DNA of 64,000 bases from Xanthostigma xanthostigma (lineage: Eukaryota; Arthropoda; Insecta; Raphidioptera; Raphidiidae). Position numbers and translations under genes: made by a program. The stretch spans positions 22,651,001-22,715,000 of the forward strand of contig OY754467.1 in the NCBI GenBank assembly GCA_963575645.1. Reading direction: 5' to 3'. Of the stretch, positions 6,491 to 38,699 are shown piece by piece (position 1 is the first letter of the stretch; each line of letters opens with the position of its first letter). A model generated the notes under the pieces. That model saw only the letters and a program-made list of their open reading frames with translations. It searched no databases and was not told the DNA's origin.

Positions 6491-7334
6491 AATAAAGCAA
6501 AAATTTGAAAATAACATCGTGTTCTATTAAAAATATCAAAATTTCTCGATGTAGGTACTCGAAAAACTCAAAAAATCCTGATCGAGTATTCTCGTGCCTC
6601 GGGAAATAAAAAAGGTCGAGAAACCAGAAATTCTAATTTGTTACAGATTCGTAACTCTAGAACAATTATTGACATAACATTTTAAATTCAAAATAGCTTA
6701 CGGAATTAGAAATATTTACGACCCAATGTAGAGTTTGCATAACGTTCTGTATTCCAATTAATTCCCATATTCTACTGAAATGGACGTAGGCATGAAGAAG
6801 ACTAAAAATCAGGCGATATATCAAAACCTTTTCAAAATTTGACAGAATATTTTGTAAAATGTATTTTATAATTCTTATTTTTGTGTAACTAAACCGTTAC
6901 TATTGCTCTGTATGAAAACTTTCCCAGGTTTCCAGAATAGATCTAGTAGTTTTTAGGCGCGAATAGCGTAAGCTAAAGCGCCTATATGTACTCGCTTTGT
7001 CTGTGAATCTGTGAATCTGTGAGTCACGCTTTTTGTATCCAGCGTACAGCCCAAACGACTTAACCGATTTTAAAAAACTTTTTTTTGTTCGATTTGTCTC
7101 CGGGTAACTTAGATCCTAACGTCGCCCGATTTTTGAATTTTTGCTCCAGAGGGGAGCAATTTAGAAAAAACGAAGTTTTTCGCTTATAACTCGCTCAATT
7201 TAAATCAGATCGGTTCGAAACCTGTCTTAAACGAAAGAGGAGAAAATTTTACATAAATTTCGTACAACAGAATTCGCCTAATCATTTTTGTTATACACAT
7301 TTATATAGAAATAAATTCAATCTGATATAACCGA

Positions 7335-8146
7335 TTATTATACCCCCAATCTTTTCGCACTCACAGAGTGTCCAACTAGGCCCGCCGTAGCTCGTCGGCG
7401 TTGAGGGGGGGTTCGATAAAAATTGTAAACTAAACTGCATTGATCTTAATTTATCACGCACTTACTTATATTGTCATTCGTTCAGCAGTAAAAATCAAGC
7501 AACCCTTTTACGGGGATGTTAAGCTTGTGAAAGTATCTTGATTGAGCGCCAAGTCCGAATTTCACTTGCTGATCGACGTCTGCAAATGCGGACTTCACTT
7601 GTAGACGTTGTCTTGTAGATGTTAAACAAAAAAAAACTCGAGTCGCAGTGCGAAACCCTGCCGACAATATAGTGTATTTGCTTTTATAAGCAGTGTGGCT
7701 CTATAGTATGAACTTAACTTTGTTTTTGGACAAAATAAAAAGAATTACTCCCTAATACACCCCTTAAAACAACATTTTTTTACTTAATTTCAATACTACA
7801 TAAAAATTCAACATCTGTACCAAATTATATACAACCTTCAGTATGTAAATCCATATCAGTAAACTTGCGTTTTCATAAAATTTGTAAGTCCGGTCCTGTC
7901 GGGCCGATTTTATTTAAATTTTAGCAGCACATTTCAATAATTACTAAAGGGTTAAATTTCAAATTTGAAGTGATTCTGAGAATTTTTTCCGTATTTTTGG
8001 GCCCAAAAACATTTTTCAACCCCTAAATACCCCCCTTAAAATGGCCCGATCGGGCCCATTTTAAATAGGCTTCTTGCGATGATGAATTCCAACATGTGGA
8101 CCAAATTTCGTTTAAATCGATTAAGTCTGTCGAGAGTTATCGTGGT

Positions 8147-8210
<64 letters not shown>

Positions 8211-8804
8211 TATATAAACATTTCCAAAAATGGTGCCAAACTTCTTAGAAACTTATGAAACGTCGAGAAATTTTGGTCCGACCTCTAGGTCCCGCCATCC
8301 GACCGACGCCAATAGTGTAAGTGCCTTATGGCAAATACACTAATAATAATATACGAAATGACGTTTTCACAATAAATTTTAATAGACAGTCCAAAATATC
8401 GAAAGAAAAAAATAATTGTTACACTCGTTACCCTAGTTACTACAGTACACAAACAATATTCTTTTGGTGACGTAAAACGTTAATGTTGCTTACTTTAATA
8501 TAGTTATTACTTTACACTTTTATTATACTACAGGGAACCAGTATCTTCCCTGATCGCTGACTATTGTTTATCACAACCAAATTGATGCACTTTTTTTTTT
8601 TTAGACTTTATACACTGTTCACTGCTCTAAATTCTTTTCCACCACAAACTACCAAACCGATCCTTCCCAAAACCAACAACTACTCCCTCTCTTTTTTTTT
8701 CCTAACAAACTCTACCTAATGCTTGACTACCACAATTTTGAATTTGAATTATTAAATTTTATCACATGTGCCGTGAGTATAAAGGTTGTCAATAATTGCG
8801 TAAC
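7335..8804. mobile_element. Insertion interrupting element L copy 1
   Basis: In the other two element L copies the leading block runs straight into the middle block (AACCGATGGCAAACATC at 35885, reversed near 27280). Here the join is broken after CCGAT at 7333, and the middle block resumes at about 8808 after another CGAT. That leaves about 1.47 kb inserted, flanked by a possible CGAT duplication. The insert contains family A copy 2 (7628-8346) and unassigned sequence on both sides. I see no clear terminal inverted repeats. Confidence 0.65.
7628..8346 (+). mobile_element. Repeat family A, copy 2
   Basis: Nearly identical to 5764-6490 and in the same orientation, 1.86 kb downstream. It carries the same (AT)n tract at 8152-8216 and the same ending GCCTTATGGCAAATACACTA, here present once. 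The start T-run is followed by CTCGAGTCGCAGTGCGAAA. Non-coding. Confidence 0.75.
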
Positions 8805-9291
8805 ACGATAGCAAACATCTTTCGGTTATCTCTCTCTGTTGCACGGTATAACATGGTAATATAATTATTGCGTATGCTCAGTCTTAAAATAAAATTGGTC
8901 GATAATTTTATTTATGACAATAATGAAATTAAAAGATAGCATTTGTTCAAAAACGGATGCCGTTTCGAATATTTCTGAAATGCAACGCCTTCTAAGTTAA
9001 CAATTTGAATAACTAATTATTAGAACTTAATACTTTGACAGAAGCAAACGTCACTTTTGACATTTCTTATCATTCCGACACCAAGGATGAGCGGATTGAA
9101 ACCAAATTTTGGGAGGATGTTTAATATGCAAATATGAAGTGGCCTATTGTTTTTGGGGAACATCGGCGCATGCGTAAAAGAATATATCTCTTATAATGTT
9201 GTTTTATATAATAATAATATATTTTTTAAGACGGTTTTTACTCTATCTATTTTTACTAGAAATTTTTGTAAATTTTTTGGGGAAAATCGGT

Positions 9292-11138
9292 GCCGTCACT
9301 CTAAATCCAATATGGCGGACTTCTAAAGATGGCGGACTAATGTTATTATGCTTTCCTACAATATGGGTATCAAATGAAAGGGCTTGCTGAGATTAACTCG
9401 AAAAATAAAGTGACGTCAGTCTAAAACCAATATGGCGGACTTTTAAAGAAGGCGGACTAAGTTTTTTATGCTTTCCTACAATATGGGTATCAAATGAAAG
9501 GGCTTGCTGAAAATAACTTGAAAAATAAAGTGACGTCACTCTAAATCAAATACGGCGGACTTCTAAAGATGGCGCACTAATTTTATTATGCTTTCCTACA
9601 ATATGGGTATCAAATGAAAGGGCTTGCTGAGAATAACTCGAAAAATAAAGTTACGTCACTATAAATCCAATATGGCGGACTTCTAAAGATGGCGGACTAA
9701 TTTTATTATGCTTTCCTACAATATGGGTATCAAATGAAAGGGCTTACTGAGAATAACTCGAAACATAAAGTGACGTCACTCTAAATCCAATATGGCGGAC
9801 TTCTAAAGATGGCGGACTAATTTTATTATGCTTTCCTACAATATGGGTATCAAATGAAAGGGCTTGCTGAGAATAACTCGAAAAATAAAGTAACGTCACT
9901 TTAAATCCAATATGGCGGACTTCTAAAGGTGGCGGACTTATTTTATTATGCTTTCCTACAATATAGGTATCAAATGAAAGGGCTTGCTGAGAATAACTCG
10001 AAAAATAAAGTGACGTCACTCTAAATCCAATATGGCGGACTTCTAAAGATGGCGGACTAATTTTATTATGCTTTCCAACAATATGGGTATCAAATGAAAG
10101 GGCTTGCTGAGAATAACTCGAAAAATGAAGTGACGTCACTCTAAATCCAACATGGCGGACTTCTAAAGATGGCGGACTAATTTTATTATGCTTTCCTACA
10201 ATATGGGTATCAAATGAAAGAGCTTGCTGAGAATAACTCGAAAAATAAAGTGACGTCACTCTAAGTCCAATATGGCGGACTTCTAAAGATGGCGGACTAA
10301 TGTTATTATGCTTTCCTACAATATGGGTATCAAATGAAAGGGCTTGCTGAGAATAACTCGAATCATAAAGTGACGTCACTCTAAATCCAATATGGCGAAC
10401 TTCTAAAGATGGCGGACTAATTTTATTATGCTTTCCAACAATATGGGTATCAAATGAAAGGGCTTGCTGAGAATAACTCGAAAAATAAAGTTACGTCACT
10501 CTAAATCCAATATGGCGGACTTCTAAAGATGGCGGACTAATGTTATTATGCTTTCCTACAATATGGGTATCAAATGAAAGGGCTTGCTAAGATTAACTCG
10601 AAAAATAAAGTGACGTCAGTCTATAACCAATATGGCGGACTTTTAAAGATGGCGGACTAAGTTTTTTATGCTTTCCTACAATATGGGTATCAAATGAAAG
10701 GGCGTGCTGAAAATAACTTGAAAAATAAAGTGACGTCACTCTAAATCAAATATGGCGGACTTCTAAAGATGGCGGACTAATTTTATTATGCTTCCCTACA
10801 ATATGGGTATCAAATGAAAGGGCTTGCTGAGAATAACTCGAAAAATAAAGTAACGTCACTTTAAATCCAATATGGCGGACTTCTAAAGATGGCGGACTTA
10901 TTTTATTATGCTTTCCTACAATATGGGTATCAAATGAAAGGGCTTGCTGAGAATAACTCGAAAAATAAAGTGACGTCACTCTTAACCCAATATGGCGGAC
11001 TTCTAAAGATGGCGGACTAATTTTATTATGCTTTCCTACAATATGGGTATCAAATGAAAGGGCTTGCTGAGAATAACTCGAAAAATAAAGTGACGTCACT
11101 CTAAATCCAATATGGCGGACTTCTAAAGATGGTGGACT
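9292..11138. repeat. 120-bp minisatellite array 1 (about 15.4 units)
   Basis: Units of exactly 120 bp run head to tail with few differences and no visible indels. Each has GTGACGTCACTCTAAATCCA, TATGGCGGACTTCTAAAGATGGCGGAC, a T-rich part with ATGCTTTCC, then CAATATGGGTATCAAATG and GGGCTTGCTGAGAATAACTCG. Because 120 is a multiple of 3, a minus-strand frame stays open over many units (9744-10379 and 10746-11192), giving a 40-residue repeating peptide with the core SFDTHIVGKHNKISPPSLEV. I regard this as a consequence of the repeat, not as evidence of a gene. Eleven of 15 unit junctions keep a perfect TGACGTCA palindrome. A three-unit signature at 9301-9660 recurs at 10501-10860. Confidence 0.95.
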
Positions 11139-11147
11139 AAGTTTTTG

Positions 11148-11288
11148 ACGTGATAACGTCTTATAAATTGATGAAACACCAGCTGCACGCACGAAAAAGT
11201 GTAACGTTCCGCCTGACCCTGTGCGCGCAAGCGAGAGCGCAGTAATGTATTATTAAATATGATATTCGAGCGGAATACGTTATCACGT
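11148..11288. mobile_element. Short inverted-repeat element next to array 1
   Basis: It is bounded by perfect 12-bp inverted repeats, ACGTGATAACGT at 11148-11159 and ACGTTATCACGT at 11277-11288. The interior contains TTATAAATTGATGAAACACC and GCACGAAAAAGTGTAACGTT. The reverse complement of that interior part occurs at 31150-31235, again beside pieces of the 120-bp satellite, so this piece travels with element L. I see no target-site duplication. Confidence 0.6.
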
Positions 11289-11329
11289 AAAACTATCGTC
11301 CGTAAACCGACTTTACAGACATCCAATTT

Positions 11330-11760
11330 TTTTATATAATAATGATGTACTTTTTATAATGTTTTATTATTCTACTTTACAAGAAAGTTTTGTAAAATGT
11401 TTTTTGAGGGAAAGTCGGCGCATGCGCAGAAGAGGTATAAGTTATAAAGTTGTTTGTATATAACAATGGTATACTTTTCATAACTGTTTATTATTCGATC
11501 TATTTTTACAAGAGTTTTGTATAATTTTTGGGAAAAATCGGCGCATGCGCAAAAGAGATACATGCCATCGTTGTTTTTTATATAATAATGGTGTACTTTT
11601 TATAATGTTTTATTATTTTATTTTAAAGAAAGTTTTGTAGAAAATTCTTTGAGCTAAAGTCGGCACATATATGTTATAAAGTTGTTTTTATATAATAATT
11701 GGGTACTTTTCATAACGGTTTATTTTTCTATCTGTTTTTACAAGAAAGTTATGAAATTTT
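11330..11760 (+). repeat. Array of about 130-bp units (about three copies)
   Basis: Each unit reads TATATAATAATGGTGTACTTT, a TTTATTATTCTATT part, CAAGAAAGTTTTGTA, then TCGGCGCATGCGCA and a purine stretch. The CGGCGCATGCGC motif is at about 11415 and 11540 and degenerate near 11660. The reverse complement of the same unit is repeated at 26560-26935 and occurs in the family C copies at 45420-45560 and 62690-63010. Confidence 0.75.
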
Positions 11761-11962
11761 TTTTCTAAACTCATAATTTCAGAAATATTTTGAAAAAAAA
11801 TCTGTTGTTCTTTTGTTCTGAAGATGTTAGTTAGGTTTAATTTTTGCATGACACAATAACATATTACATAGAAAACCATGAAATTATTAAAATTATATTT
11901 TCCTTTCTGTGTTTCATTATTTTCAACTGTTATTTTTTTCTTAGAATAAGTAACGTTAAATA

Positions 11963-12059
11963 TATACACCGATTTTCAAACAAAACACCGGGGTATATGA
12001 CGTAAAATTTCGCGCCTTGTAATTCTTGAATTACTTGGGCATATACTCCCACTGGTTTA
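11963..12059 (+). repeat. Element L end block
   Basis: The block runs from TATATACACCGATTTTC to CATATACTCCCACTGGTT. It recurs at 38593-38690, and reversed and shortened at 25675-25750. Its outer parts (about ACCAGGGTATATG and CATATACTCCCACTGGT) are imperfect inverted repeats around a palindromic centre AATTCTTGAATT, so the block is itself a small foldback. Similarity between copies stops just after CACTGGTT, which suggests the right boundary of element L. Confidence 0.7.
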
Positions 12060-13800
12060 ATTACAAAAAGACTTTGGGCTACTGACACCCTGGACCTAAT
12101 AAGCTTTAGCGGCCTTATAACCTATTAAGGTGCTGCTTGAAATCAACATAGCCAATTTGCTATGTAGAAATTGTAATAGTAATTTAGGTTTGCCTGCGTG
12201 TCTGTTTCATGTAGTGGATGCTTAGGGAAAAGGAATTTTTTTTCTTTTTTTAGTTTTTTGTCTTATCGGCAAAGAGAAATCACAGCCCTGTAAATATTTA
12301 CACGCGATCGTGACAGGTCCTTTTTATAAACGGTAATATTTACTTATATTACAAATAGTGAGCGTATGAAGTCAGTTCATTAACATAAGCCGTATTTGTA
12401 TGTATGGATGTATGAATGCAAATCAAACGGAGCAATCATAACTCAATACAATATTTCATTATAATAATTCATGTGTATTTGCAGAGTGTGGTGAATTTCA
12501 ATAGTTGATTGTTTTACAATTATGTCGTTAACCCCGCCCTTACGCTTGTTCTATGTAAATCAAATAATATGTCTGCTCATACACGCAGGTTGTGTTGATC
12601 CCGAATTACTTTCACGGAGTCCGAGAAAGTTACTTTTTCTAATAGTCCAAAAGCTCATGGTCAAAATTTTTTTTGGAAAGACTGATATTTTTTAATTAGC
12701 TAACATTAAGGCTGTAAATAAATACACTACAGTCAACTTTAAAATATGCAAAAAAATTAGCATTCTGTAAAAACCTAAAAAAAAAAAAAAAACAGTGACT
12801 GACTCAGCACTCGGTAGAAATTCCTAATTCCGACTAGATCGGTTTTATCAAAATGAATGTTAACTACCCCGACGTCAGAGATTTTGACCGGCTAGCTCTT
12901 TGAGTGTTACTATAATAACTACAAATGCTGGTGTCGCCTGAAAGAGTTTTGTTGTTTTCTTAAATAATCCGTTTATCTAAAGGTCCAATGACGACCTAAA
13001 AATCTTTGTTCGTGAATGTTAGAGAAATCTCTGAACACACTCAGGAAATAACCTACCCTGGGCCTCCACCTTCAAGATTAGCTCCGAAAAGATATTTTCA
13101 AATAGTTACCTTAACATTTATAAGTTGATGTTTTTTTTCGCCCAAATTTATGATCAGTAACCTTATATTATGATATATTCGTTCCTCTAGTGCTACTGTG
13201 CTCTGGACAAAATAAATGTTAAAAAAGTATACGAAACTTTCACACATTAGAAATGACATTTTTTAGGTTTTAGGATTTGTTGACGATTCTGTTATTTTAG
13301 GATTAGGAAGTGGTTATGTGGAATAGAGAAAATGCTGCGTATATATACAGTAAGAAAGGGGGGAAAAGTGTAAATGACAGACAGATTCTCTCACAATTTC
13401 CACTCAACTGCTGGTTGAGGGGAAACGTTTCACTATTCGTCTGATTCATGCTAATTTACCCCTTAGCGCACCTAAATAAATTTCACTTAAAAAATTAAAC
13501 TGGAAAAAGTTAATTGTGACAAGTGGTGCTATTTACGATTAGGTAGAAAGACATTTGGACTATGATAACTGTAGTGTATAAGCAAATGATAGTTTGATTG
13601 TGTAAAATCATACTCTATAATGATTTCTACCTATCAATTTTCTATTTAATCTGTCTGATTGTCTGCTATGGAAATTATACTGAAATGGCGTAGACCCGAT
13701 CTATTTACATAATGCAGTCTACAGAATGTCCGTTAAATCTTTTCAAATATATTAGTTATTATGAAAGATAAAATCGCATCCGAATAAGCAAATTAATTTT
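12060..13800. other. Unresolved DNA without recognisable genes
   Basis: I see no repeat shared with the rest of the window and no coding signal. There is a small hairpin CATAG/CTATG near 12150, a T-rich run near 12240 and an A15 run near 12780. It may be unique intergenic sequence. Confidence 0.45.
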
Positions 13801-13845
13801 TTAGCACGGCAGCACTTGGGACAATTTTGTCCACAGATTTATTAG

Positions 13846-14200
13846 TTCAAGTAAATAAAATTGTCGATCAATTTTTCTTAGACCATATATTGACAAAAAA
13901 TAATAAAAATACAAATAAATATAACACAAGATGACGTTTCGATCCGGATTTGGATCTTCTTCAGAAATATCTGAAAAATACAAAAATTAATTAGTATTAA
14001 GTTATTTATTATTGCGTGCAATCTATTTATTAGATAATAAATAACTTAATACTAATTAGTTTTTATACTTTTTAGATATTTCTTAAGAAGATCCAGATCC
14101 GGATCGAAACGTCATCTTGTGTTATATTGATTTGTATTTTTATTATTTTTTGTCAATATATGGTCTGAGAAAAATTGGTCGACAATTTTATTTACTTGAA
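13846..14200. mobile_element. Foldback with hammerhead-like motif in each arm
   Basis: Arms of about 165 bp pair across a loop of about 25 bp. The left arm starts TTCAAGTAAATAAAATTGTCG and the right arm ends GACAATTTTATTTACTTGAA. On the minus strand at 13933-13964 lies CTGAAGA, A, a GATCC/GGATC helix, then GAAACGTC. This fits the hammerhead ribozyme core CUGANGA...GAAA with one extra base before helix II. The right-arm copy (14082-14113, plus) reads CTTAAGA, losing a core base. The right arm and 30 bp beyond it match 35010-35140, so the two loci are one family. Penelope-like retroelements are known to carry hammerhead motifs, which is the closest known parallel. I see no GIY-YIG or reverse transcriptase sequence here. 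Confidence 0.65.
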
Positions 14201-14325
14201 GAGTTCTATTCAGACGTTAATCAAAGATTTGTATATTTATTAGTGTTGGTTGAATAGCGGGATCTAGGAATCGAATCAAAATATCTTAACATTTCACATC
14301 ATCCTGAACAATTTTCCACGATTTT

Positions 14326-14850
14326 TTTATTCTCTCACTCTCTCTCTCTTTTCTTTACCCATTTTTAACAAATTTTTCTTTATCCGATCTTTATCCATTC
14401 TTCTTTATCCCTTCTTTATTCATTTTTCTTTATCCATTTTTATCTTTTTTTTCTTTTTACAATGTTTATCCATTTTTCTTTACATATCTATTCCTCTTTG
14501 TCCCTTCTTTACCCAATCTTTATCAATTCTTCTTTACCATTTTGTCTATTCTTTTTTATCCATTCTTCGTTATCCCTTCTTTTATGTTCCATCTTTATCC
14601 ATTTTCTTTGTCTCATCTTTATCCTTTCTTCTTTATCTATTCTTTATCCATTCTTATTTGTTCAATCTTTATCCTTCTTCTTTATCCACTCTTTATCTGT
14701 TCTTCTTTGTCCCATCGTTGTCTTTTCTTAAAGAATTATCTGTCCATTCTTCTTTGTCCATTCTTTAACTATTTTTCTTTATCCAGCTTTATCCATTCTT
14801 TGTCCTTTCTTCTTTATCCATTTTATCCATTATTTATACAATCTTTACCC
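14326..14850. repeat. Pyrimidine-rich minisatellite, unit about CTTTATCCATTCTT
   Basis: About 500 bp of loosely repeated CTTTATCCATT/CTTCTTTATC words, almost purine-free on the plus strand. Two long plus-strand frames (14462-14731 and 14542-14979) translate into phenylalanine, leucine and serine runs and look like membrane proteins. They are compositional artefacts of the repeat. Strand asymmetry of this degree can favour triplex (H-DNA) structure. Confidence 0.85.
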
Positions 14851-15370
14851 ATTTTTAATGAATCAATTAACAAAAATATGTCTTCAAAAACCGTATGCTC
14901 ATTTTTGTGCGGAGAGTTTGTACTAAACGTTCTTAGTTTCCGGGCTTGTAGGCCGTGGTCTATTGGTATTTATACCTGACGTTTCCTCGGTAATTTAGCC
15001 CAAGTTCGAATTTTGTATACATTTTATATTTTGATTGTATTTTTAGATACTAATGAAACTATTTTCGGAAACAATTTGGAACTTACAAAAATTAAATAAC
15101 AATAAATAATGCATAATAATTAATTATTTAAAAATAAAACCTAGGTATGCCGCTTTTAATTTTCTGTTGATACATTTATTTTTTATATTTTCATTATTTA
15201 ATAATAATGACAAAAACATAATAAATAATAATAAAATACTAATTGGATATCGGGGCACTAACTCCCTTCGCCAACACCGACTCATAAAACTGGCATTCAG
15301 AATAAATGTATTTTTTTTTTTTGAAAAAATGTACAAATTTTTTTTTAATTTTTAAAGAGAATAAAAAAAT

Positions 15371-15516: not shown

Positions 15517-15674
15517 ACTTTATTATTTTTTATTAATCATGGTCTAACAAGTGCGAAGAGAAAAATCAGTACAAATTATATTTTAAAAAGAATTAACGAA
15601 AAATAAACCTACAAAATCATTACCTACTGATGATATCTAGAAACGCTTATGTCTCAAATACAGTGGAACACACT

Positions 15675-16656: not shown

Positions 16657-18999
16657 CACGGCAAAATATTCACCTTACATGCAAGTAATTGGTTATTCAA
16701 TTTTACTTGCATTTACAAATAATCTGCAGCAGTTATATGTTTAATTCTCAAATGAATTGAAACGATAAAATTATATTTGCATATTTCACACAACGCAATT
16801 TTCAAGTTCACTGATCTTTCGTTCATTTATACTATAACCTCTCAATTTGCATTCCAACAGAAAGATCAAATTCGACAAGTCATTTTCATGATCGTATAAA
16901 TGGGTTATTAAAGTTTCAATGGCCAATGATTTCGTTGAGCGTTTAACATTTCGAATTTGAATATGCATTCAACTGATAGCAGTATGTAATTGACCTGAAT
17001 CATGCATTTAAAAACGTATTCTAGACGTCTACTTCGATCGTTTTGTTAACTCTTTGTAAACATGTGCTTTAACCCTGCATGCACGAATAATCATAAATCC
17101 TTAAAGCAGCGCTGGGTAACCTCGGATCTTTGAGTTCCTAGGAGCTCTCCAGGTAGCTCCCATAAGCGAATGTAAGAGTGACTGGGAGAGGTATAAAACT
17201 TTTATTCCAAAAAACTATACTTGTCTCACTTGGGGTCGTAAATTTACCTGTGCGTAACGAAGAATAGATTTCCTTGGAACAATAGAGATTAGTGCTGGTC
17301 GCACTTCAGAAGTCATAGGTTTCCCCTGATTATATTATATCATGGTCGGTTTATTTTTTTCATTATTTCACAGGTAGCTAAGCTGGAAAAAATGAAGGTT
17401 GTTATAATTTCCGAAAATATTAATTAATTGATTACTTTTCTCTAGAGAAAACATTAGATTACGAATTGTTTACAATTTAACTAAAGCGTTTTATTTATTT
17501 TAAAGTAGGTAAGAACTTTATTAAGTGCTTACAACATGAATCTTTTTTAGTAAGATTCAAATTAATGTTTGTATGAAAATTTGTTAGTGTTGTTTCGAAA
17601 ATATCAGCGAAAACGGATTCCTGTCAAGATCAGTAGAAAAGTAAAGGGGATGGCAGGGGTGAACCGTTTCAGAACTCTTTTGCAAGGGGGACCTCCTACG
17701 TGGCATATATTTCCGAAAAACAATAGGACTCTTCCTTTCATCATGCCAAACGTTCTATCAAAATTTGGTTTGATTCGTTCAGACGTTTGACTTGTATCGT
17801 ATACTCATGGGCTAGCAAACTAACAAACATAGGTATACGAACAGATTTTTTTCCAAAATATATTACACTCAGGGGACCTCAAAACGAGAAAAATATCGTC
17901 AAATTTTGAAAAGAGGTTAAGGGAAGTGCCCTCTAGATCAGTTTGAAGAAAAAATAAATTAGAAGAATAATTTAATCAAAGATGTGACCTTAATTGGAAG
18001 AAAATAAACATGTTTTATCTCTTCAACTTTTTACAATGAAAACTTTAGATTTAGGGTAGATTTAACATCAAATTAACATAATTTGTTCTCACGGCTGGAT
18101 ACAGCATTCGCTTGACAGTGTTAACAAACGTAGTGCGAACGACGCTTTACTTTAACAAAGTTTTCAAAATGAAAATAAAGAAAATTGTCGTTATAGTCGT
18201 AACTAAATCTAGTCGGTTCTGCTTCTTGGTGTGATCTGTCTCATGCAATAACTCTTTTTCAAACCTACAGGGGTTAGCTGAGTTAGCTCAAAATACTCTT
18301 ATCGGGGATAGTTTAAACAGAGGAGTGAGTTTGTTTAAATGACGTTTTAGTTTATTTTATTGCAATGTAGGCAGATATTCGAATGCAATATTCTTCCGGC
18401 ATAACTGAAAATGCAATACAATAATGCGAGTATATCAGACTATATTAAGTGGGTGCATTATTTTGTGATATGCATTGGGTCATATTTTAAGCTTAAAAGA
18501 CAAGATACACTTTAATGTGTCCATTTTAAATGCTGTAATTGTGTTAAATATCACATTTGATTACAGAATCAGTTATAATTGAGAATTGATATTGAAGCGG
18601 ATGCTTGCAAAAGAATAAAGTTTATTCTTTCTTTCTCTGTTATTCAAATTTTTAAATACGACTAGTCATAGCCAATTTAATCTATTTGATATTATTGTAC
18701 TATTTTTTTTTTTAAATTAAATTTATAGAAATCAAACCAGTTATTTTATCTTTAGGTTTAATATCCGGTCGTATATTATAAGTGCCAGAGCCGACCGTCG
18801 GATACAGAAATAAAATTTGTGTGAGTTAGCGTTGAGGCAGTCAAATAAGGAGACCCAATTGTTATTATTTGTATTCTGGCCGGAATTGAAAAATTATGGC
18901 TGCCAAGGTGTTGTGGTAGCTTGAACTCTGGCACCCCGTGATGATATGAAAGTAAAATCGATGAAGTAAGAAGACAATACAAAAATATAGTTTAAAAAA
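16657..18999. other. Mostly unresolved DNA with a family C remnant
   Basis: A diverged family C fragment lies at about 17700-17940: the order AAAAACAATAGGACTCTTC, CCAAA...TTTGGTTTGATTCG, AAACTAACAAACATAGG, CCAAAATATATT, GACCTCAAAACGAGAAAAAT matches 45565-45750. A possible short inverted pair GTGCCAGAG / CTCTGGCAC lies at 18781-18935. I see nothing else. Confidence 0.45.
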
Positions 19000-25674: not shown

Positions 25675-27640
25675 AAGTTTTCAAGAATTACAAGGCGCGA
25701 AATTTTACATAATATACCCCCACGTTATGTTCGAAAATAGGTGTATATTTTTAACGACACTTTGAGCTTAATAATATAATTTAATTAACATTAATGTAAG
25801 AAAAAAATAACAGTTAAAAATATTGAAACACAGAAAGGAAAAAATCATAATAATTTATTAATAATTAATTTAGGTTCATTAATATAAAAGCGTTAGCTGT
25901 AAACTCTATGGTCGTTTATTAGTCACAATCAATAATATAATTATGACCCTAAATTATTAAAAATTATATTTCCTTCTTGGTACATTTCAATAAAAACTTT
26001 CTTTTTATTAGTATTTTATTTTTCTTGTTTTTATAGTCTTTCAAAATTTTAACTATTATGACATTAATTTATTAAAATTATTTGATTATTTTATTCAAGA
26101 TGGTTGAGAAGGAAAAGGTATTCTGTCATCCTGGGGCATCCGCCATATTGGATATATACATTGTCACCAGACTTATGCATGTGTGTGAAATTTCAAAGCT
26201 TTAGTTAATTTAATCTAGTCGAACAAATTGCAGCAATTGGACTACGGGGCCTTTCCAACTAATAAATTATAATATTGACATTTGACATATAATAACAAAG
26301 AAAATAAAATTTCCGTTAACGCGTGCAGTAACGCGGGTAACGGTTACCACTAAACATTATAAAATTTGCTATTCGTTTTCATGGTTTTCTATAATATGTT
26401 ATCACGTTATGATGTTAAAATTAAACAAAGCATGCTTGTCAAATACCTAACTAACATCTACAGAACAAACTAACTTTAGATTTTTTTTATTTTCAAAATA
26501 TTTCTGTGACTACAAATTTAGAAAAACACATTTTTTTCATGACTATCTTGTAAAAATATACAGGCTAATAAACCGTTATGACATGTATATCATAATTATA
26601 AAAAAAAAACAAAATTAAATGGTAGGTACATCTTTCTCCGAATATATCTCTGTTACGCATGCGTCGATTTTTCCGAAAAATAAATTTCAAAACTTTCTTG
26701 TAAAACTTATAGAATAATAAACTGTTATGAAAAGTATACTATTGTTATATAAAAAAAACATCATAGCATATAATATCTTTTGCGCATGCGCCGATTATCC
26801 CCAAAAAAATTTACAAAAATTTTTAGTAAAATTAGATAGAATAATAAGCCGTTATAAAAACTATGTTATTATATAAAACAACATTATAAGAGATATACTC
26901 TTTTGCGCATGCGCCGATGTTCCCCAAAAAACAATAGACCACTTTATATTTGCATATCAAACATCCTCCCAAAATTTGGTTTCAATCCAATCATCCGTGG
27001 TGTCGGAATGGTAAGAATTGTCAAAAATAACGTTTGCAACTGTCAAAGTATTATGTTCTAAAAATTAGTTATTCTAATATTGTTAACTCAGAAGGCGTTG
27101 CATTTCACCAATATTTATAATGGCATTCGTTTTTGGACAAATAAAAACTTTTTATTTTATTTTTTTAATAAATAAAATTATCGACCAATTTTCTTTTAGG
27201 ACGAAACATACGCAATCTTTAAATTACCACATTACACTTTGCTACAGAGAGAGATAACCGAAAGATGTTTGCCATCGTTTATATCAAATTGAATTTATTT
27301 CTACAGAAATCTGTATAAAAAAACCGTTTGGGCAAATTCTGTTGTACGAAATTTATGTAACATTTTCTCCTCTTTCGTTTAAGACAGGTTTCGAACTGAT
27401 CTGATTCAAATTGGGTGAGTTATAAGCGAAAAACTTTGTTTTTTCTTTATTGCTTCCCTCTGGGGTCGAAATTAAAAAATCAGGTCACGTTACGATCTAA
27501 GTTACTCGGAGACGAATCGAACAAAAAGAAGTTTGTACACAATCCACAAAAAAGCGTGACGTACAGATTTATAGATTCACAGACAAAGCGAGTACATATA
27601 GGCGATTTGGCTTACGCTATTCGAGCCTAAAAATGCACCA
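25675..27640 (-). mobile_element. Element L copy 2, reversed and lacking the 120-bp array
   Basis: Read on the minus strand it begins at 27640 with the leading block (TTTTTAGGCTCGAATAGCG) and runs straight into the middle block at about 27285. Three units of about 130 bp follow (26935-26560), then the linker with CCTTTCTGTGTTTC and AACTGTTATTTTTTTCTTA, and a shortened end block (25750-25675). The order equals copy 1. The 120-bp minisatellite is absent, as is the small inverted-repeat element. The segment at 26220-26560 also matches family C (TTTCCAAC...GACATTTG, AACGCGGGTAA), which shows that family C and element L share modules. Non-coding. The plus-strand frame 27415-27630 is read through the leading block and is not a gene. 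Confidence 0.65.
26560..26935 (-). repeat. Array of about 130-bp units, reversed (about three copies)
   Basis: The minus-strand units match 11330-11760: the CGGCGCATGCGCAAAA word occurs (reversed) near 26785 and 26910 and as ACGCATGCGTCG near 26657, each followed by the TATATAATAAT and GAAAGTT parts. Confidence 0.7.
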
Positions 27641-28750: not shown

Positions 28751-28779
28751 TGTACAAATATTTATAATATGATGTGACG

Positions 28780-30530: not shown

Positions 30531-30580
30531 ATTTTGTATTAAAAACAATATATCCATTTAAAAATTGGCAATTTGAAAGT

Positions 30581-30784
30581 TTATGATTCGTACTGTATCG
30601 TTCCTAACCTTATTAATCCATTTACGAGAGACTTTCGTGTTTGTGTTGGTCCTGCATTTTTAAGTTTATTGCTTTCCTTGCTTCCCATCCCTGTTTCTGG
30701 TAACCTATCCATCATTGTGTCCCAGTCTTGAATGTATTTTTTAGGGAATAAGATGCTGGCACATGGGTTAAACCCTGAAGCCAC
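30581..30784 (-). CDS. Unidentified open frame, possible coding remnant
   Basis: A 67-codon minus-strand frame beginning MASGFNPCASILFPKKYIQDW and ending LVNGLIRLGTIQYES has unusually ordinary residue composition for this AT-rich window and contains no simple repeat. It lies between the decayed LINE and a piece of 120-bp satellite, so it may belong to a transposon. I do not recognise a family. No splice sites or promoter could be assigned. The chance of a fortuitous frame remains high. Confidence 0.2.
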   Translation of the reverse strand: MASGFNPCASILFPKKYIQDWDTMMDRLPETGMGSKESNKLKNAGPTQTRKSLVNGLIRLGTIQYES

Positions 30785-30804
30785 AGGTTGCGGTTTAAAA
30801 TAAA

Positions 30805-31240
30805 ATTAGTCCGCCATCTTTAGAAGTCCGCCATATTGGATTTAGAGTGACGTCACATAGCTAACCATGCATTGTCATTCAAACTAAACGTGTATACAAA
30901 TTTTCATCTCAATCGGTTGATGATATCTGCTTCAAAATTATCGAAGGCATTTCCGCCATCTTTAGAAGTCCGCCATATTGGATTTAGAGTGACGTCACAC
31001 AGCTAACCATGCATTGCCATTCAAACTAAACGTGTGTACAAATTTTCATCTCAATCGGTTGATGATATCTGCTTCAAAATTTCCGAAGGCATTCTAGTCG
31101 CTCACTTAGTAATGTCAGGAACGTTAGGAACGTCAGGAACGTTAGGAACGTTACACTTTTTCGTGCATGCAGCCGGTGTTTCATCTTTTTATTTTGATGT
31201 GATTCATCAATTTATAAGACGTTATCACGTAAAAAAAAAA
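30805..31240 (-). repeat. Element L fragment: satellite edge and flank, duplicated
   Basis: Two tandem copies of a 142-bp segment start at 30811 and 30953. Each joins part of the 120-bp satellite unit, reversed (CCGCCATCTTTAGAAGTCCG, TTGGATTTAGAGTGACGTCA), to the sequence that flanks array 2 on its left (GCTAACCATGCATTG, TTTTCATCTCAATCGGTTGA; compare 36480-36545). After them come a 9-bp minisatellite (31110-31154) and the reverse complement of the small inverted-repeat element interior (31150-31235, ending ACGTTATCACGT). This is therefore a rearranged, mostly reversed element L remnant. Confidence 0.75.
31110..31154. repeat. 9-bp minisatellite, unit AGGAACGTT/AGGAACGTC
   Basis: Four to five near-perfect head-to-tail copies with alternating last base (T or C). 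The run ends in GTTACACTTTTTCG, which joins it to the element L fragment. Confidence 0.85.
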
Positions 31241-31379
31241 CTTCAATAGTAATTTTGTTCAAGCTTCAAAGTGGCGGGAAAATTAGTTCTTGACATCTAA
31301 CACAAACCTCTACAAACGACCTATGAAAACGACCATCACTAGCAGTGACACTAGATCGATCCAGTACTGCTAGACAGAA

Positions 31380-31480
31380 ATTGTAGGTGAACAACTGACG
31401 GTCATTGCTGGTCTAATGTGCGCTACTACGTTAAATAACATGGGTACCTTCACGAACATGCTTTTTTGCTTCGTGCTATG
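31380..31480. repeat. Short interspersed repeat shared with 61100-61165
   Basis: TGCTGGTCTAATGTG, GTTAAATAACATGGGTACC and TTCACGAACATG occur here and, as the reverse complement, at 61105-61165 (CTGTTCGTGAAGGTACCCG, GTTATTTAAC, CACATTAGACCAGCA). The class is unknown. Confidence 0.6.
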
Positions 31481-31614
31481 TTGGCCGTGCAGATTTATGC
31501 TTGACTAGTGGTTAAGCGTGTCTCTCTCAGGCGCAATATCGTAATCCGACAATTCAAAATAGCATCTTTCTTTTACATTATAATAAACAATAAATCTATT
31601 ATCAAAATACAGGA

Positions 31615-31694
31615 TTCTATCAACGGAAAGCTCAAACCACTGGACGGACTGGTGGAAATCTGCAAATTCGGGCGAAACTGAACCGGTCCGCTAG
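31615..31694 (+). mobile_element. Helitron-like 3' end fragment
   Basis: The segment ends GGTCCGCTAG at 31694 followed by T, consistent with a Helitron 3' boundary. Upstream AAGCTCAAACCACTGGACGG resembles the 5' part of the short Helitron at 44105-44601, and GGGCGAAACTG recalls other Helitron-like GC-rich ends here. It looks internally deleted. Confidence 0.45.
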
Positions 31695-31699
31695 TATAT

Positions 31700-32440
31700 A
31701 TATATACAAAAAAAATGAGCTGTGACACTGTTGTCACTTTATATTGCAATATCTTCTCACGACTGTTATACTGATTGTTTAAGAAATCAGCGTAGCCAAC
31801 AGTCGGAAGTTAATAAACAATAATCACGAATCATGAGTGACCTCAAGTACCAACCTAATAGCTTCAAACCATTACAAATTGATTTTATGTCATCCGTTGT
31901 CGTAAATTATTGATACATGTTTTGTTTACCTATATACACCGCGTTTGTTGTGCGTGCATAATAGATTTATTTCGGCGACGATTGATTCTAATTAATTAAG
32001 CATATATTATATCAATTACAAAAAAGCTATTCACTATTAACTTCTCGGTCTGGTTTCGCCCGAGTGCAAATTCAATTAAGTACCACATTTTTGTCATGAA
32101 GTAATAATACATAGTTTCTATTCGTGAAAGAAGAAAAAACGTTTCTTAAGCTCTTTAAAAGTACTGTGTGCTATTTGGACAGAAAATTGGCTTTTGTGAC
32201 TCGTGTGAGATTGTCAGTCTCGCTTCGCTCATGTGGCAGTGTGGCAGACTTCACAGCTAGTCGCAAACATCAATTTTATGCCCAAGTAGCACAATGTACT
32301 ATAATAACGGATAGAGTACGATAACTCGATGTGCAAAATATCCATTGAAAAAACATTATTATTTAAATAACATATAACAGTACCTATTATTAGCCGTTTT
32401 AAGTGCGGAAATTGATTTTAAAATTTTCTTTTATTTTTGC
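31700..32440. other. Unresolved DNA
   Basis: Near 32045-32080 GGTCTGGTTTCGCCCGAGTGCAA resembles, in reverse, the GC-rich Helitron-like end at 31665-31690, but no boundary can be fixed. Otherwise no recognisable content. Confidence 0.35.
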
Positions 32441-32747
32441 GCAGTGAAAAGGAGAAGGCGTTTGGGAAGAGTTCTTTAAAAAACAATTACGGGGTCGTGT
32501 CGGTGTGATGGCGTTTTTTTCGCAGTGAAAAAGGGAAGGCGTCTGTGGGAGTTTTAAACAAAAAAACAATTACGGGGTCGTGTCGGTGCTATGGCGGTTT
32601 TTTTGCCCAATGAAAATGGGAAGGCGTCTGGGGAAGTTCTTTAAAAAACAATTACGGGGTCGTGTTGATGCGATGGCGTTTTTTTGCACAGTAAAAAGTG
32701 GAAGTCGTCTGGGGGGAGTTCTTTAAAAAACAATTACGAGGTCGTGT
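32441..32747. repeat. G-rich minisatellite, four units of about 81-85 bp
   Basis: Each unit reads GCAGTGAAAAGGGGAAGGCG, TCTGGGGAGTTC, TTTAAAAAACAATTACGGGG, TCGTGTCGGTG and ATGGCGTTTTTTT. Units start at about 32441, 32522, 32607 and 32688. Related single or partial units occur at 2690-2815, 38387-38590 and perhaps 44795-44900. The minus-strand frame over this area is an artefact. Confidence 0.9.
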
Positions 32748-34600
32748 ATACAAGGTAAGATAGTAATACACCAGCTGTGTACCTATATGTGATTTTTGAT
32801 TGGTTAGATTCAAAAAATGACAGTGAAAGATGAAAAGTTTTTGAAATTGATGAATAATCCGCAAAGTTTTTTTTTTTTGGAAAGACAAAATTTAGCGTTT
32901 TCTAAAAAAAAATAGTCAAAATTTGGGCACATCGAGTTGTCGTACTGGGCCCTATAATAACTGTTCTTCCTTTCGTTTAAGACACATCTTAACTCAATAC
33001 GATTTCATTATAAAAGTTATCAGAATTAAAATTTTCTTATGGTGAAATTTTCATAGGCATATCTATTAAAAGTAGGCTTGTTAAATAACGAATGGTATTC
33101 ATACCGTGCAGCACATACTTTCATGGAACAAGCTGTCCAAATTATAATAAAAGTACACTGACTTGATCTTATCATCCATTTTGACACTTTAAATTCCATT
33201 ATTTCTAAATCCTACTCAAGAGTCACGCATTGTACGAGATGAAAATAACACTGGCTCATTGTTTTTGTTTACTGTTTAGTAATCATTGTCGATCAGTAAA
33301 TACGGTTAGTTTTGATGACTGTTCAAAAACATCTTCCTACACACAATAGACCAGTAGCTGTGTTGAAATGTTTTAGATGTTCATGCAATTCACGCCTAAC
33401 GTTAAAGTATTAGAGTAATCTCAACGAGGTGCCAAGCCTTGTTTACTTTTATTTAATTTAGCTAATGAATAGTAATTAACTAAAAATGTTTAATCTTTTA
33501 GGTGTTTTCTCATTAATAGGAAAATTTCGTGGGAATACAAAATATCTCATGAATAATTGTACTACTATATAATTATTCTGTAAACCCGGCAAAAGTCGAG
33601 GAAAACTAGAAAGAAAATAGAAATAATACAATAAGCATGATTACCCATCAGTTATCGAGTGTGGTATGTAGGGTAGACGGACAGTTTTGTCGACAGAGAA
33701 ACTTTCATCTACACTTTTTTCGATCATCTTTGATACCCATGAAAATAATTTTCCTTCCAGTATATGTACATATTGTGTTTATAATGTTTGCACTATGGCT
33801 GGTTATTTCTTAGAAACTGAAAGAATAGGCTACATGTGGTAGTGCCATAATTATGTGTTAAAATTCGAAAGGTTTTGGTTGAATCCTTCACGTGATTAAC
33901 TGCTTTAGATTTGTTATGCTAAAGCAATTAAAAATAGGTTCTAAGAAACTTGTGTAAATGAGTGACAATTGTAACGTGTTTTGGCTGAGAAAAGATGACA
34001 GTTGAAAGGTGTTTGAATTTTATTGGCCATCGCGAGCAAGGCTTGTTTGAGTATGACTGATCTTTAAAAATATAGTTGAATAGTTGGAAGTGTAAGTTGT
34101 AAGTCAAGCGTTGAGACTTGAGAGTTAAAGATTGAATTTGTAAATAAAGTATGTACAAAGTTGAAATTGTTTATTTCAAATTCACTTCCATCCTGACACG
34201 AGAAATAAATTAAGGATAGATGTAACAATTATCAGAAGTGTAAGATACAGATCGGTTTATCAAAAGTGGAGATATATTATATATAGCACATGTTCTATAA
34301 CTAAAATGTAAAAAGTCACATATACTGTCAACTAGACACCCCATAAATACCACTACACCTGAAATGTGATAAGCAATTTAAAAAAAAAACTGAAAAATAA
34401 ATTGATCGAAGAATCAAACTATACGAACGACACTTAAAATAATTTTAAAGACCATTGACGCTGTTTACATACAATTACTGTATTATATAAATAAAGATTA
34501 TTATTATTTATCATTTAAAAGCGACATCCAATAAAATCTCAATTATATCAAAGGTTACAACAAATATTTAAGTACTGAGATTCATAAGGAACTGGACAAA
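32748..34600. other. Unresolved DNA, possible retroelement end at right
   Basis: No gene is recognisable. The part at about 33930-34160 reads as an open minus-strand frame of 76 codons without known domain. Near 34480-34510 ATATAAATAAAGATTATTATT resembles a LINE 3' tail, but no coding remnant precedes it. Confidence 0.35.
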
Positions 34601-34604
34601 GAAG

Positions 34605-35140
34605 TCAATTAAAGACGTTCACACGAATTGATGTGCGACGTTTCGACACTTTTTGTGACATTTTTAAGAACATACGTATGGAGAAAGGATATTCTACAGG
34701 TCTCAAGTAGTTTGCGTCTAATGTGCCTTTACCAGATATTATACACAAATTATAAAAATAATCCTGATTCCAGTTCCCAAAATGGAGATGTTTTTTATTT
34801 TTAACGGTGGTTTTCAAACTGGGTTTAGATCTTCTTCAGAAATGTCTAAAAATCTAAAAAAATAATTAGTAAAATCTACCTATTTTGTAATAGAATGAAG
34901 AAGTTAATTATCGAAAATTATGAAAAATTAACTTCTGCATTCTATTATAAAATAAGTATATTTTACTAATTAATTTTTTATATTTTTAGATATTTCTGAA
35001 GAAGATCTAAACCCAGATCGAAACGTCATTTTTTGTAATATTGATTTATATTTTTATTTTTGTCAATATATAGTCTGAAAGAAATTGGTTGACAATTTTA
35101 TTTATTTGAAGAGTTCTATTCAGACATTAATCAAAGATTT
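34605..35140. mobile_element. Foldback family member with hammerhead-like motifs (related to 13846-14230)
   Basis: A foldback at about 34820-35012 pairs TGGGTTTAGATCTTCTTCAG with its complement on the right. The right arm continues to about 35140 in sequence shared with 14100-14235 (GTCAATATATAGTCTGA, GAGTTCTATTCAGAC, TTAATCAAAGATTT). At 34996-35027 the plus strand has an intact CTGAAGA, A, a five-pair GATCT/AGATC helix, then GAAACGTC. The left-arm counterpart (34810-34839, minus) keeps CTGAAGA but has lost helix II pairing. A further degenerate version (CTTAAAA, GTGTCGAAACGTCG) lies at 34637-34668 on the minus strand. The 70-codon minus frame 34605-34817 runs across these motifs and is not convincing as a gene. 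Confidence 0.6.
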
Positions 35141-36546
35141 TTATCTGTACATCGTTAAAGGTTTAATTTTTGTATTTTTCATAATGAATAATAAAATAAT
35201 ATATACTCGTGTAGACATTTGAATGTGTTTAAAAGACTTGAAATCTAGTTGAATTTATTATTATTATGTTATATGTAACAGCTAGCAAGTACCGTCAATC
35301 AATAATTGTACAGTGTGTTCACCAAATGTGGTAACAGTGAATAATTCGTGTATCCTACTAGATGCAAAAACAAATTTAAATAGTTTTCTGTTCAACTCGA
35401 GATTTACTATTGGAAACTGCTGAGGTATATTTTTTTTCTACTTCAAAATCAACAGGATGTGTAGGTATGTGCATTTTTTTTCAAATGGCAAAATATTTTT
35501 AGGCGCGAATAGCGTAAGCTAAAGCGCCTATATGTATTCGCTTTGTCTGTGAATCTGTGAATCTGTGAATCTGTATGTCACGCTTTTTTGTGGATTGTGT
35601 ACAGCTCAAACGCCTTAACCGATTTTAAAAAACTTTTTTTTGTTCGATTCGTCTCCGGGTAACTTAGATCCTAACGTCGCCCGATTTTTGAATTTTTGCT
35701 CCAGAGGGGAGCAATTTAGAAAAAACGAAGTTTTTCGCTTATAACTCGCTCAATTTAAATCAGATCGGTTCGAAACCTGTCTTAAACGAAAGAGGAGAAA
35801 ATTTTACATAAATTTCGTACAACAGAATTTGCCCAATCAGTTTTTTTATACACATTTATATAGAAATAAATTCAATCTGATATAACCGATGGCAAACATC
35901 TTTCGGTTATCTCTCTCTGTTGCACGGTTTAACATGGCAATTTAAAAATTACGTATGTTCTGTCTTCAAATAAAATTGGTCGATAATATTATTTATTACA
36001 ATAATGAAATTAAAAGATAGCATTTGTTCAAAAACGGATGCCGTTTCGAATATTTGTAAAATGCAACGCCTTCTGGGTTAACAATTTGAATAACTAATTA
36101 TTAGAACATAATACTGTGACAGATGCAAACGTCACTTTTGACATTTCTTACTATTCCGACACCACGGACGAGCGGATTGAAACCAAATTTTGGGAGGATG
36201 TTTGATATGCAAATATGAAGTGGCCTATTGTTTTTTGGGAACATCGGCGCATGCGTAAAAGAATATATCTCTTATAATGTTGTTTTATATAATAATAATT
36301 GGGGAATTATAAAACGGTCGAATAAAAAAAAAACTTGGTGATGAGATACTGTTTTAATAACTTGAATATTAAAATAACAGTTGTGTGACTAAATTAATAA
36401 GTGAGCGACTAAATTACTAAGTGAGCGACTGAATTACTAAGTGAGCGACAAGAATGTCTTCGGTAATTTTGAAGCAAATATCTTCAACCGATTGAGATGA
36501 AAATTTGTATACACGTTAAGTTTGGATAACAATGCATGGTTAGCTA

Positions 36547-38372
36547 TGTGACGTCACTCTAAATCCAATATGGCGAACTTCTAAATATGGCGGACTAATT
36601 TTATTATGCTTTCCTACAATATGGGTATCAAATGAAAGGGCTTGCTAAGAATAACTCGAAAAATAAAGTGACGTCACTCTAAATCCAATATGGCGGACTT
36701 CTAAAAATGGCGTACTAATTTTATTATGCTTTCCTACAATATGGGTATCAAATGAAAGGGCTTGCTGTAAATAACTCGAAAAATAAAGTGACGTCACTGA
36801 AATCCAATATGGCGGACTTCTAAAGATGGCGGACTAATATTATTATGCTTTCCTACAATATGGGTATCAAATGAAAGGTCTTGCTGAGAATAACTCGAAA
36901 AATAAAGTGACGTTACTCTAAATCCAATGTGGCGGACTTCTAAAATGGCGGACTAATTTTATTTTGCTTTCCTACAATATGGGTATCAAATGAAAGGGCT
37001 TGCTGAGAATAACTCGAAAAATAAAGTGACGTCACTCTAAATCCAATATGGCGGACTTCTAAAGATGGCGGACCAAGTTTATTATGCTTTCCTACAATAT
37101 GGGTATCAAATGAAAGGGCTTGCTGAGAATAACTCGAAAAATAAAGTGACGTCACTCTAAATCCAATATGGCTGTCTTCTAAAAATGGCGTACTAATTTT
37201 ATTATGCTTTCCTACAATATGGGTATCAAATGAAAGGGCTTGCTGAGAATAACTCGAAAAATAAAGTGACGTAACTCTGAATCCAACATGGCGTACTTCT
37301 AAAGATGGCAGACTAAGTTTTTTATGCTTTCCTACAATATAGGTATCAAATGAAAGGGCTTGCTGAAAATAAGTCGAAAAATAAAGTGACGTACTCTAAA
37401 TCCAATATGGCGGATTTCTAAAAATGGCGGACTAATTTTATTATGCTTTCCTACAATATGGGTATCAAATGAAAGGGCTTGCTGAGAATAACTCGAAAAA
37501 TAAAGTGACGTCACTCTAAATCCAATATGGCGGACTTCTAAAATGGCGGACTAATTTTATTTTGCTTTCCTACAATATGGGTATCAAATGAAAGGGCTTG
37601 CTGAAAATACCTCGAAAAATAAAGTGACATCACTCTAAATCCAATATGGCGGATTTCTAAAGATGGCGGACTAAGTTTATTATGCTTTCCTACAATATAA
37701 GTATCAAATGAAAGGGCTTGCTGAGAATAACTCGAAAAATAAAGTGACGTCACTCTAAAACCAATATGACTAAATTCTAAAGATGGCGGACTAAGTTTTT
37801 TATGCTTTCCTACAATATGGGTATCAAATGAAAGGGCTTGCTGTAAATAACTCGAAAAATAAAGTGAGGTCACTCTAAATCCAATATGGCGGACTTCTAA
37901 AGATGGCGGACTAATTTTATTATGCTTTCCTACAATATGGGTATCAAATGAAAGGGCTTGCTGAGAATAACTCGAAAAATAAAGTGACGTCACTTTAAAT
38001 CCAATGTGGCGGACTTCTAAAATGGCGGACTAATTTTATTTTGCTTTTCTACAATATGGGTATCAAATGAAAGGGCTTGCTGAAAATACCTCGAAAAATA
38101 AAGTGACATCACTCTAAATCCAATATGGCGGATTTCTAAAGATGGCGGAGTAAGTTTATTATGTTTTCCTACAATATAAGTATCAAATGAAAGGGCTTGC
38201 TGAGAATAACTCGAAAAATAAAGTGACGTCATCCTAAATCTAATATGGCGGACTTCTAATAATGGCGGCTTAAGTTTTTTATGCTTTCCTACAATATGGG
38301 TATCAAATGAAAGGGCTTGCTGAGAATAACTCGAAAAATAAAGTGACGTTACTCTAAATTCAATATGGCGGA
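36547..38372. repeat. 120-bp minisatellite array 2 (about 15.3 units)
   Basis: The unit is the same as in array 1 but with more indels (some units are 118-119 bp), so the minus-strand frame is broken into pieces of 60-151 codons. Nine of 16 junctions keep a perfect TGACGTCA. A four-unit block is duplicated: a shortened unit with CTTCTAAAATGGCGG and TTTTATTTTGC, followed by a unit with ACATCACTC, GGATTTCTAAAGATGG and CAATATAAGTATC, occurs at about 37515-37705 and again, 480 bp on, at 37995-38185. Confidence 0.95.
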
Positions 38373-38386
38373 CTAAGCTTTTTTTG

Positions 38387-38590
38387 ATAAAGGGGTATGC
38401 GAATTGTCTCGCAGTGAAACGCGATGGGGCAGGGGTGGAGTTTTTAAAAAAATAACTTCGGGGTTAACGATAAACGGGTATGCGAATTGTAATTCCGGGG
38501 TGAACGATAAAGGGGTATGCGAATTGTCTCTCAGTGAAACGGGAAGCGGCAAATGTGGAGTTTTTAAAAAAAAAAATCCGGGCTGAACGA
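38387..38590. repeat. G-rich minisatellite, about two and a half units of 82 bp
   Basis: The units begin GATAAAGGGGTATGCGAATTG, then CTCGCAGTGAAACG, a G-rich part, GGAGTTTTTAAAAAAA and CGGGGTTAAC. The middle unit has an internal deletion to 37 bp. The layout is that of the 81-85-bp unit at 32441-32747. The frames found on both strands here are by-products. Confidence 0.8.
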
Positions 38591-38699
38591 TAAATATACA
38601 CCAATTTTCAAACAAAACACCAGGGTATATGATGTAAAATTTCGCGCCTTGTAATTCTTGAATTACTTGGGCATATACTCCCACTGGTTCTTTTACATT

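Follow-up and report, generated by a model that had tools for sequence, protein, structure and literature searches.

The DNA examined here, a window of 64,000 nucleotides of Xanthostigma xanthostigma (C4:22651001-22715000), contains three copies of a composite repeat, introduced as Element L in a preliminary description and named HINE-L here, which is very probably a HINE, that is, a non-autonomous Helentron, mostly 2.4-5 kb long and with satellite-like arrays as central modules. Helentrons are relatives of the rolling-circle transposons. The three blocks are copies of one interspersed element that has spread to hundreds of places in the genome (623 Mb in 28 contigs were searched), and the sampled copies have precise common ends, a constant order of the main modules, insertion in T-runs and a recent dispersal. 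Per-site data on the ends come from the first 100 places each of the left tip and the right end, all on contig C1, and the locus samples are the first 30 left and the first 30 right loci on C1, a non-random choice made by exact ends.

The unity of HINE-L is most readily seen at its two ends. The exact 29-bp left tip occurs at 1182 places genome-wide and the exact 36-bp right end at 635, left tips thus outnumbering right ends, and the reversed-pattern controls gave 0 places for either end. Pairing of the ends was assessed on C1 to 39.07 Mb, where both sets of places overlap (100 left tips, 49 right ends). In this region 39 of the 49 right ends have a same-strand, correctly ordered left tip within 10 kb, whereas 1000 trials of random placement gave 0.69 on average and never more than 4; wrong-order pairs number 0, and two right ends have an opposite-strand tip within 10 kb. 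The paired ends span 1.6-9.2 kb, with 33 of the 39 spans within 2.36-5.01 kb. Random combinations of blocks lacking common termini are thus not what this part of C1 contains, and the proposal that the 120-bp arrays are part of a mobile unit is borne out by the precise termini and their pairing. The interior of the element recurs as well: the copy A junction at 11000-11600 is found full-length at 99-100% at each of the 40 places scored out of 2913 candidates, window included. The 39-base core of the satellite has 8148 exact copies genome-wide, and 87 of the 100 cores listed (10 of 15 clusters) lie no more than 6 kb downstream of a same-strand exact left tip.

The sequences that flank these ends define the target. 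T is found at positions -4, -3, -2 and -1 of the left-tip flank in 30, 30, 29 and 30 of 30 loci, position -5 being mixed, and at +1 and +2 of the right-end flank in 30 and 29 of 30. Paralogous empty sites, in which Ts were counted by hand, are readable for 4 of the 14 pairs with both ends. Filled and empty sites differ by a net 2 T for L034/L051 (empty site in the window at 51290-51294), for L015/L043 (two paralogues, in L043 and L001) and for L013/L042 (empty site in L011), and the gain is about 5 T for L009/L039, whose empty-site paralogue in the window (within 1186-1446) is 79% identical. L032/L050 was too broken to read and was excluded, and the junctions of L025/L047 (many diverged repeats, 73-83%), L027/L048 (a 54-base stretch) and window copy C (73% match) stand outside the count. 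No duplication apart from the Ts was seen in the empty sites of the four pairs, three of them clean. The sampled copies of HINE-L therefore insert in T-runs, with no other target change in the clean empty sites; a TT insertion site, initially reported as not visible, does exist in the form of this T-run, and a check of the termini for target duplications yields precise common ends and, in the clean empty sites, only the net gain of 2 T. Around the sampled tips, the 40-base flanks look unlike one another by eye yet abut identical termini, the exception being L016 and L022, whose flanks are alike over 101 bases on the left (99.0%) and 114 bases on the right (95.6%). In L016/L044 and L022/L046, two HINE-L copies that differ in arrangement occupy one and the same position in a repeated flank; this may reflect two insertions at one site or an exchange of the interior.

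Within the window, self-alignment recovers an identical module order in copies A, B (reversed) and C (Table 1), in agreement with the three occurrences first described. The stretch 6950-7335 aligns to 35496-35890 at 94% and to 27633-27274 at 81%, 8801-9218 aligns to 35883-36299 at 94%, and 11952-12065 aligns to 38586-38697 at 92%. The leading and middle blocks had been presented as separate; their order holds, but they are contiguous in copies C and B and form one module, which in copy A is interrupted by a nested insertion of 1.5 kb that holds a repeat also present at 5763-6469. Copy B indeed has no 120-bp array, its only array being of the second type (Tandem Repeats Finder (TRF) period 123), and it also lacks the last ~26 bases of the 3' end present in A and C. 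Between the 120-bp array and the end block, copy A has a second array, and at this position copy C carries a different short repeat made of two 89-base copies, 120 bases apart and 86.5% alike. Fragments at 30805-31240 had been taken as support for mobility; the piece at 30799-31192 derives by rearrangement from the type-C pre-array/array junction and contains a 142-bp internal duplication, and it adds little to that case. In the 120-bp monomer, GTGACGTCAC is intact in 124 of 205 units, and selection on the palindrome TGACGTCA is unsupported, its mean conservation being 0.953 versus 0.968 for the whole monomer.

Table 1. HINE-L copies, their modules and related features, in window coordinates.
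Feature	Position	Strand	Remarks
HINE-L copy A (type A)	6950..12055	+	interrupted by 7336-8800; Ts on both flanks
Copy A, left tip	6950..6984	+	T-run, 5' subterminal inverted repeat AGGCGCGAA, 7-bp inverted repeat TAGGCGC...GCGCCTA
Copy A, short microsatellite after tip	7000..7023	+	(TCTGTGAA)n
Nested insertion of other repeats splitting the copy A leading module	7336..8800	.	self-alignment
Copy A, middle module and partial second-array-type unit	8801..9293	+	
Copy A, 120-bp central array	9290..11146	+	15.5 units (span 9290-11145)
Copy A, spacer between the two arrays (type A)	11147..11326	+	
Copy A, second array	11327..11820	+	TRF period 122
Copy A, right module	11952..12055	+	3' subterminal repeat TTCGCGCCT, palindrome GTAATTCTTGAATTAC, end CCCACTGG
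HINE-L copy B	25681..27633	-	second-type array only, 3' tip missing
HINE-L copy C (type C)	35496..38687	+	
Copy C, microsatellite	35546..35574	+	(TCTGTGAA)n
Copy C, 120-bp central array	36548..38374	+	15.3 units
Copy C, short repeat in 3' part	38386..38594	+	
Copy C, right module	38586..38687	+	
Rearranged HINE-L fragment (pre-array/array junction, internally duplicated)	30799..31192	-	
Paralogous empty site of the HINE-L copy at C1:13.992-13.995 Mb	51290..51294	+	TTTTT

The same order of main modules is found in the sampled loci. The leading module is present in 26 of the 30 left loci, the other four (L017, L028, L030, L033) having just 33-45 bases of it at the tip, and the middle module follows in 25, L014 having the leading module but 30 bases of the middle one. 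Past the middle module, 120-bp units in the same orientation occur within 1.5 kb in 23 of the 30, including L011, L018, L029 and L036, which show merely a 44-46-base piece of the unit; L013 and L019 have no 120-bp units in the 1.5 kb examined. On the other side, 25 of the 30 right loci carry 120-bp units of the same orientation upstream of the end module, and none were found within 1.5 kb of the right end in L046, L055, L060, L067 and L068. Four arrangements can be distinguished: one like copy A (leading-middle-120-spacer-second array-end), one like copy C (leading-middle-pre-array-120-short repeat-end), a third with second-type units and the pre-array ahead of the 120-bp array (L013, L016, L024), and a fourth with an extra stretch within the middle module (L011, L018, L019, L029, L036). 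Twelve of the 30 right loci carry the short 3' repeat of copy C, nine of them in the same orientation and three inverted (L042, L058, L061), and order and orientation are therefore constant for the main modules and not for this repeat. An inverted-repeat insertion of ~165 bases was also observed inside a HINE-L left end (L033:1532-1702), after which the microsatellite resumes.

The dispersal of HINE-L is recent, as its left modules are nearly identical. The nearest relative is no more than 1.0% away for 22 of the 26 sampled left modules, the exceptions being L012 (2.9%), L013 (1.5%), L014 (26%, mostly unrelated sequence) and L031 (5.1%); L023, L026 and L037 differ by 0-0.1% and have flanks unlike by eye. 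For the left modules of the window copies, the distance to the nearest sampled relative is 0.9% (A), 10.9% (B) and 0.1% (C). Comparison of monomers bears on how the arrays travel. For the first three monomers of type C (5 loci), the mean likeness between elements is 0.962 at the same position (n=30), 0.935 at different positions (n=60) and 0.931 within one array (n=15); the greater likeness of same-position monomers fits arrays being copied as blocks with the element. The contrast is small in type A (11 loci; 0.969 at the same position, n=209; 0.963 at different positions, n=836; 0.965 within an array, n=84), and there the comparison says little on this matter. Together with the empty sites, the same-position monomers suggest that the arrays travel with the element. 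A more far-reaching reading, which is conceivable though rather doubtful, is that HINE-L is a satellite-swapping lineage whose young subfamilies share two common ends and hold varied mixes of the 120-bp, the 122-130-bp and a third short repeat. Array combinations would then be exchanged by template switching during rolling-circle copying, and the transposon would be the chief route of the satellite to new sites; the third repeat, found in either orientation and similar to repeats of a canonical Helitron, would be part of this exchange.

The assignment of HINE-L to the HINEs, already suggested for the composite repeat, is supported by the hallmarks that could be tested, the length of the subterminal repeat being short (9 bp). 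The repeat AGGCGCGAA stands directly after the left terminal Ts, and on the right side 38 nt lie between the end of its complement and the final GG. The 5' inverted repeat TAGGCGC / GCGCCTA, with 17 nt between its arms, is complementary to the subterminal repeat and is the 7-bp hairpin that had been recognized at the leading end. In copies A and C the 3' palindrome GTAATTC-TT-GAATTAC is separated from the end by 21 nt; it is found in 30 of the 30 right loci, though nearly all of it lies in the search pattern, and both the microsatellite and the central tandem repeats of HINEs are present. Canonical Helitrons are defined by a 3' CTRR end and an A/T target; the right end of HINE-L is instead CCCACTGG followed by TT. 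Thomas et al. (2014, PMC4067079) place the subterminal inverted repeats of HINEs at 2-4 nt from the 5' end and at 38-60 nt from the 3' end, with a palindrome 8-35 nt from the latter; in their description microsatellites and tandem repeats are optional, and insertion is into T-rich sites, where the number of Ts varies and the target is otherwise unchanged. Oyster elements with the HINE plan carry satellite-like arrays, according to Vojvoda Zeljko et al. (2020, PMC7492417), and central repeats have been described in fly and mite elements as well.

By analogy with these elements, rolling-circle-type copying of HINE-L by a Rep/helicase acting in trans can be proposed. A Helentron Rep/helicase protein encoded elsewhere would recognize the 3' palindrome together with the subterminal repeats and would copy, as a single strand, everything from the left tip through the CCCACTGG end; this strand would insert into a T-run with the 120-bp array carried along inside. 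An autonomous partner, which could not be seen in the window at the outset, has still not been found in the genome searches made. Helitron_like_N has 89 matches in the genome; the tip followed by TATA and then a non-T base occurs at 21 places, none of them within 10 kb of such a match. L017, L028, L030 and L033, checked as candidate autonomous relatives, have no frame >114 aa in 1.5 kb. Frames of >2000 aa are taken to be the better Helentron candidates, and none of the exact right ends listed lies within 10 kb of the sole such frame listed on C1 (60108002), the left tips listed stopping short of it.

A Rep-bearing stretch close to HINE-L was followed up at C1:45.53-45.55 Mb, where a HINE-L right end is preceded, at a distance of ~5 kb, by a 1555-aa Rep/helicase frame. 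This class of frame encodes Helitron_like_N and PIF1 domains (1510 residues within L089 examined), and 16 places, the C1 copy included, match its 5.2-kb 5' stretch at 99-100% (36 candidates scored), on which account the element looks recently active; three copies were observed on contig 16, ~24 and 25 kb apart. That this abundant Helitron drives HINE-L, which would then be a non-autonomous canonical Helitron, is very improbable, even though its copies are nearly identical, one of them adjoins the right half of a HINE-L copy, and its 3' part (L089/L090 joined, 10833-11442) contains repeats that the short 3' repeat of type C resembles in pieces of >120 bases at 80-88%. Its own 3' end is a hairpin and then CTAG before T, and the ends of HINE-L differ from this both in CCCACTGG before TT and in a 5' tip with an inverted repeat. 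In one copy this CTAG adjoins the HINE-L middle module, at GATAA/TATTATT, and at a place on C3, with another Rep match 5.5 kb upstream, it gives way to unrelated DNA. As a HINE-L partner the element was rejected, the junction with the middle module being exact at the C1 place only and two further junction matches having 2 mismatches each, the C3 one of which runs past CTAG into the unrelated DNA. Because the exact junction is unique and the CTAG end recurs elsewhere, the 1555-aa element is taken to be a canonical Helitron lying within a HINE-L copy; judged by its 3' end, the element at C1:45533900-45549000 (L089, L090) is probably a canonical Helitron with an intact frame.

It is just as improbable that HINE-L is a miniature inverted-repeat transposable element or a foldback element moved by a DDE transposase. 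The left tip does form a short hairpin, but the inverted repeat is asymmetric, standing at the very left end and 38 bases before the right end, and the readable empty sites have no duplication beyond the Ts, with no constant duplication in the three clean pairs. The view that satellite, leading block and end block are separate repeats brought together by chance or by segmental duplication, to which the common flanks of L016/L022 and the satellite clusters without an exact left tip nearby might be credited, is scarcely credible given the 39 of 49 paired right ends, the absence of wrong-order pairs and the common termini beside unlike 40-base flanks.

Several points nevertheless weigh against HINE-L being a HINE that disperses as one unit. 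The exact subterminal repeat has 9 bp, shorter than the 11-15 bp described, and 16 of 2000 shuffles produced a match equally long; an exact left tip within 10 kb is missing for 10 of the 49 right ends, and 5 of the 15 listed satellite clusters lie outside any exact-tip element. In addition, 3 of the 12 right loci that carry the short 3' repeat of type C have it inverted, the sampled loci are the first on C1, picked by exact ends and not at random, and no autonomous element with HINE-L ends was found, the one Rep-bearing stretch examined being the canonical Helitron.

Other repeats were observed alongside HINE-L. Four window stretches (17703-17913, 45139-45809, 52222-52729 and 62451-63974) are diverged kin of its middle and second-array modules and of each other; self-alignment finds no 120-bp units in them, and they are probably older HINE families. 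An 82-bp tandem array of 3.8 copies at 32434-32747 has related pieces at 2739-2801 and in locus L030. A tie of this array to the copy C 3' repeat was considered and dropped: ~45 bases are weakly similar (score 39 versus 33 for the best of 300 shuffles), the array has no match in the 30 right loci, and a link is not claimed. A long low-complexity array of CTTTATCC type, with open frames inside, occupies 14268-14979. Elsewhere in the assembly, contig ends (L071-L074, L076-L078, L080, L083 and others) hold arrays of units like CCCTTTTTTGGGCCGTTTTTT or AGCTCCTTTTTTCCCTTTTTT, and no triple TTAGG or TTAGGG occurs in 20 stretches examined. Contig 28 (17.7 kb) encodes, on the minus strand of its first 9000 bases, a frame that is presumably ND2, assigned by Pfam to the NADH:quinone oxidoreductase family, followed by COX1, COX2, ATP6 and COX3. 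The order ND2-COX1-COX2-ATP6-COX3 is the arthropod mitochondrial arrangement, in keeping with an insect host.

Among insect elements, DINE-TR1 of Drosophila is a Helitron/Helentron-type element with central tandem repeats, to which HINE-L is likened by description and not by sequence. As far as seen, the HINE-L family is new within the known satellite-bearing HINEs, the literature having been compared by family terms rather than by sequence, and it may already be named in a repeat library. HINE-L and the HINE/DINE-1 elements of Thomas et al. (2014, PMC4067079) are alike in the positions of the subterminal repeats, the 5' inverted repeat (DINE-1), the 3' palindrome, the microsatellite, the optional central repeats and the T-rich insertion with variable Ts, and they differ in the exact subterminal repeat, which is 9 bp in HINE-L, 12-15 bp in the mite elements and 13 bp in DINE-1. 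The 5' inverted repeat has a spacing of 17 nt in HINE-L, compared with 3-22 nt in DINE-1 and 1-12 nt in Cg_HINE of the Pacific oyster. In Cg_HINE elements (PMC7492417) the satellite-like arrays are likewise flanked by a left and a right HINE module; some of the elements have two successive arrays, and some have common flanks and different monomers. The consensus monomers of Cg_HINE are 138-181 bp, compared with 120 and ~122-130 bp in HINE-L, their clusters average 2.3-5 units (the longest 29.3) compared with ~15 units in two of the window arrays, and their subterminal repeats are 11-12 bp compared with 9 bp, the host also being different. HINE-L is thus a clear, recent and well-bounded insect case of a Helentron-type element dispersing satellite arrays, and it backs the existing model rather than opening a new one.

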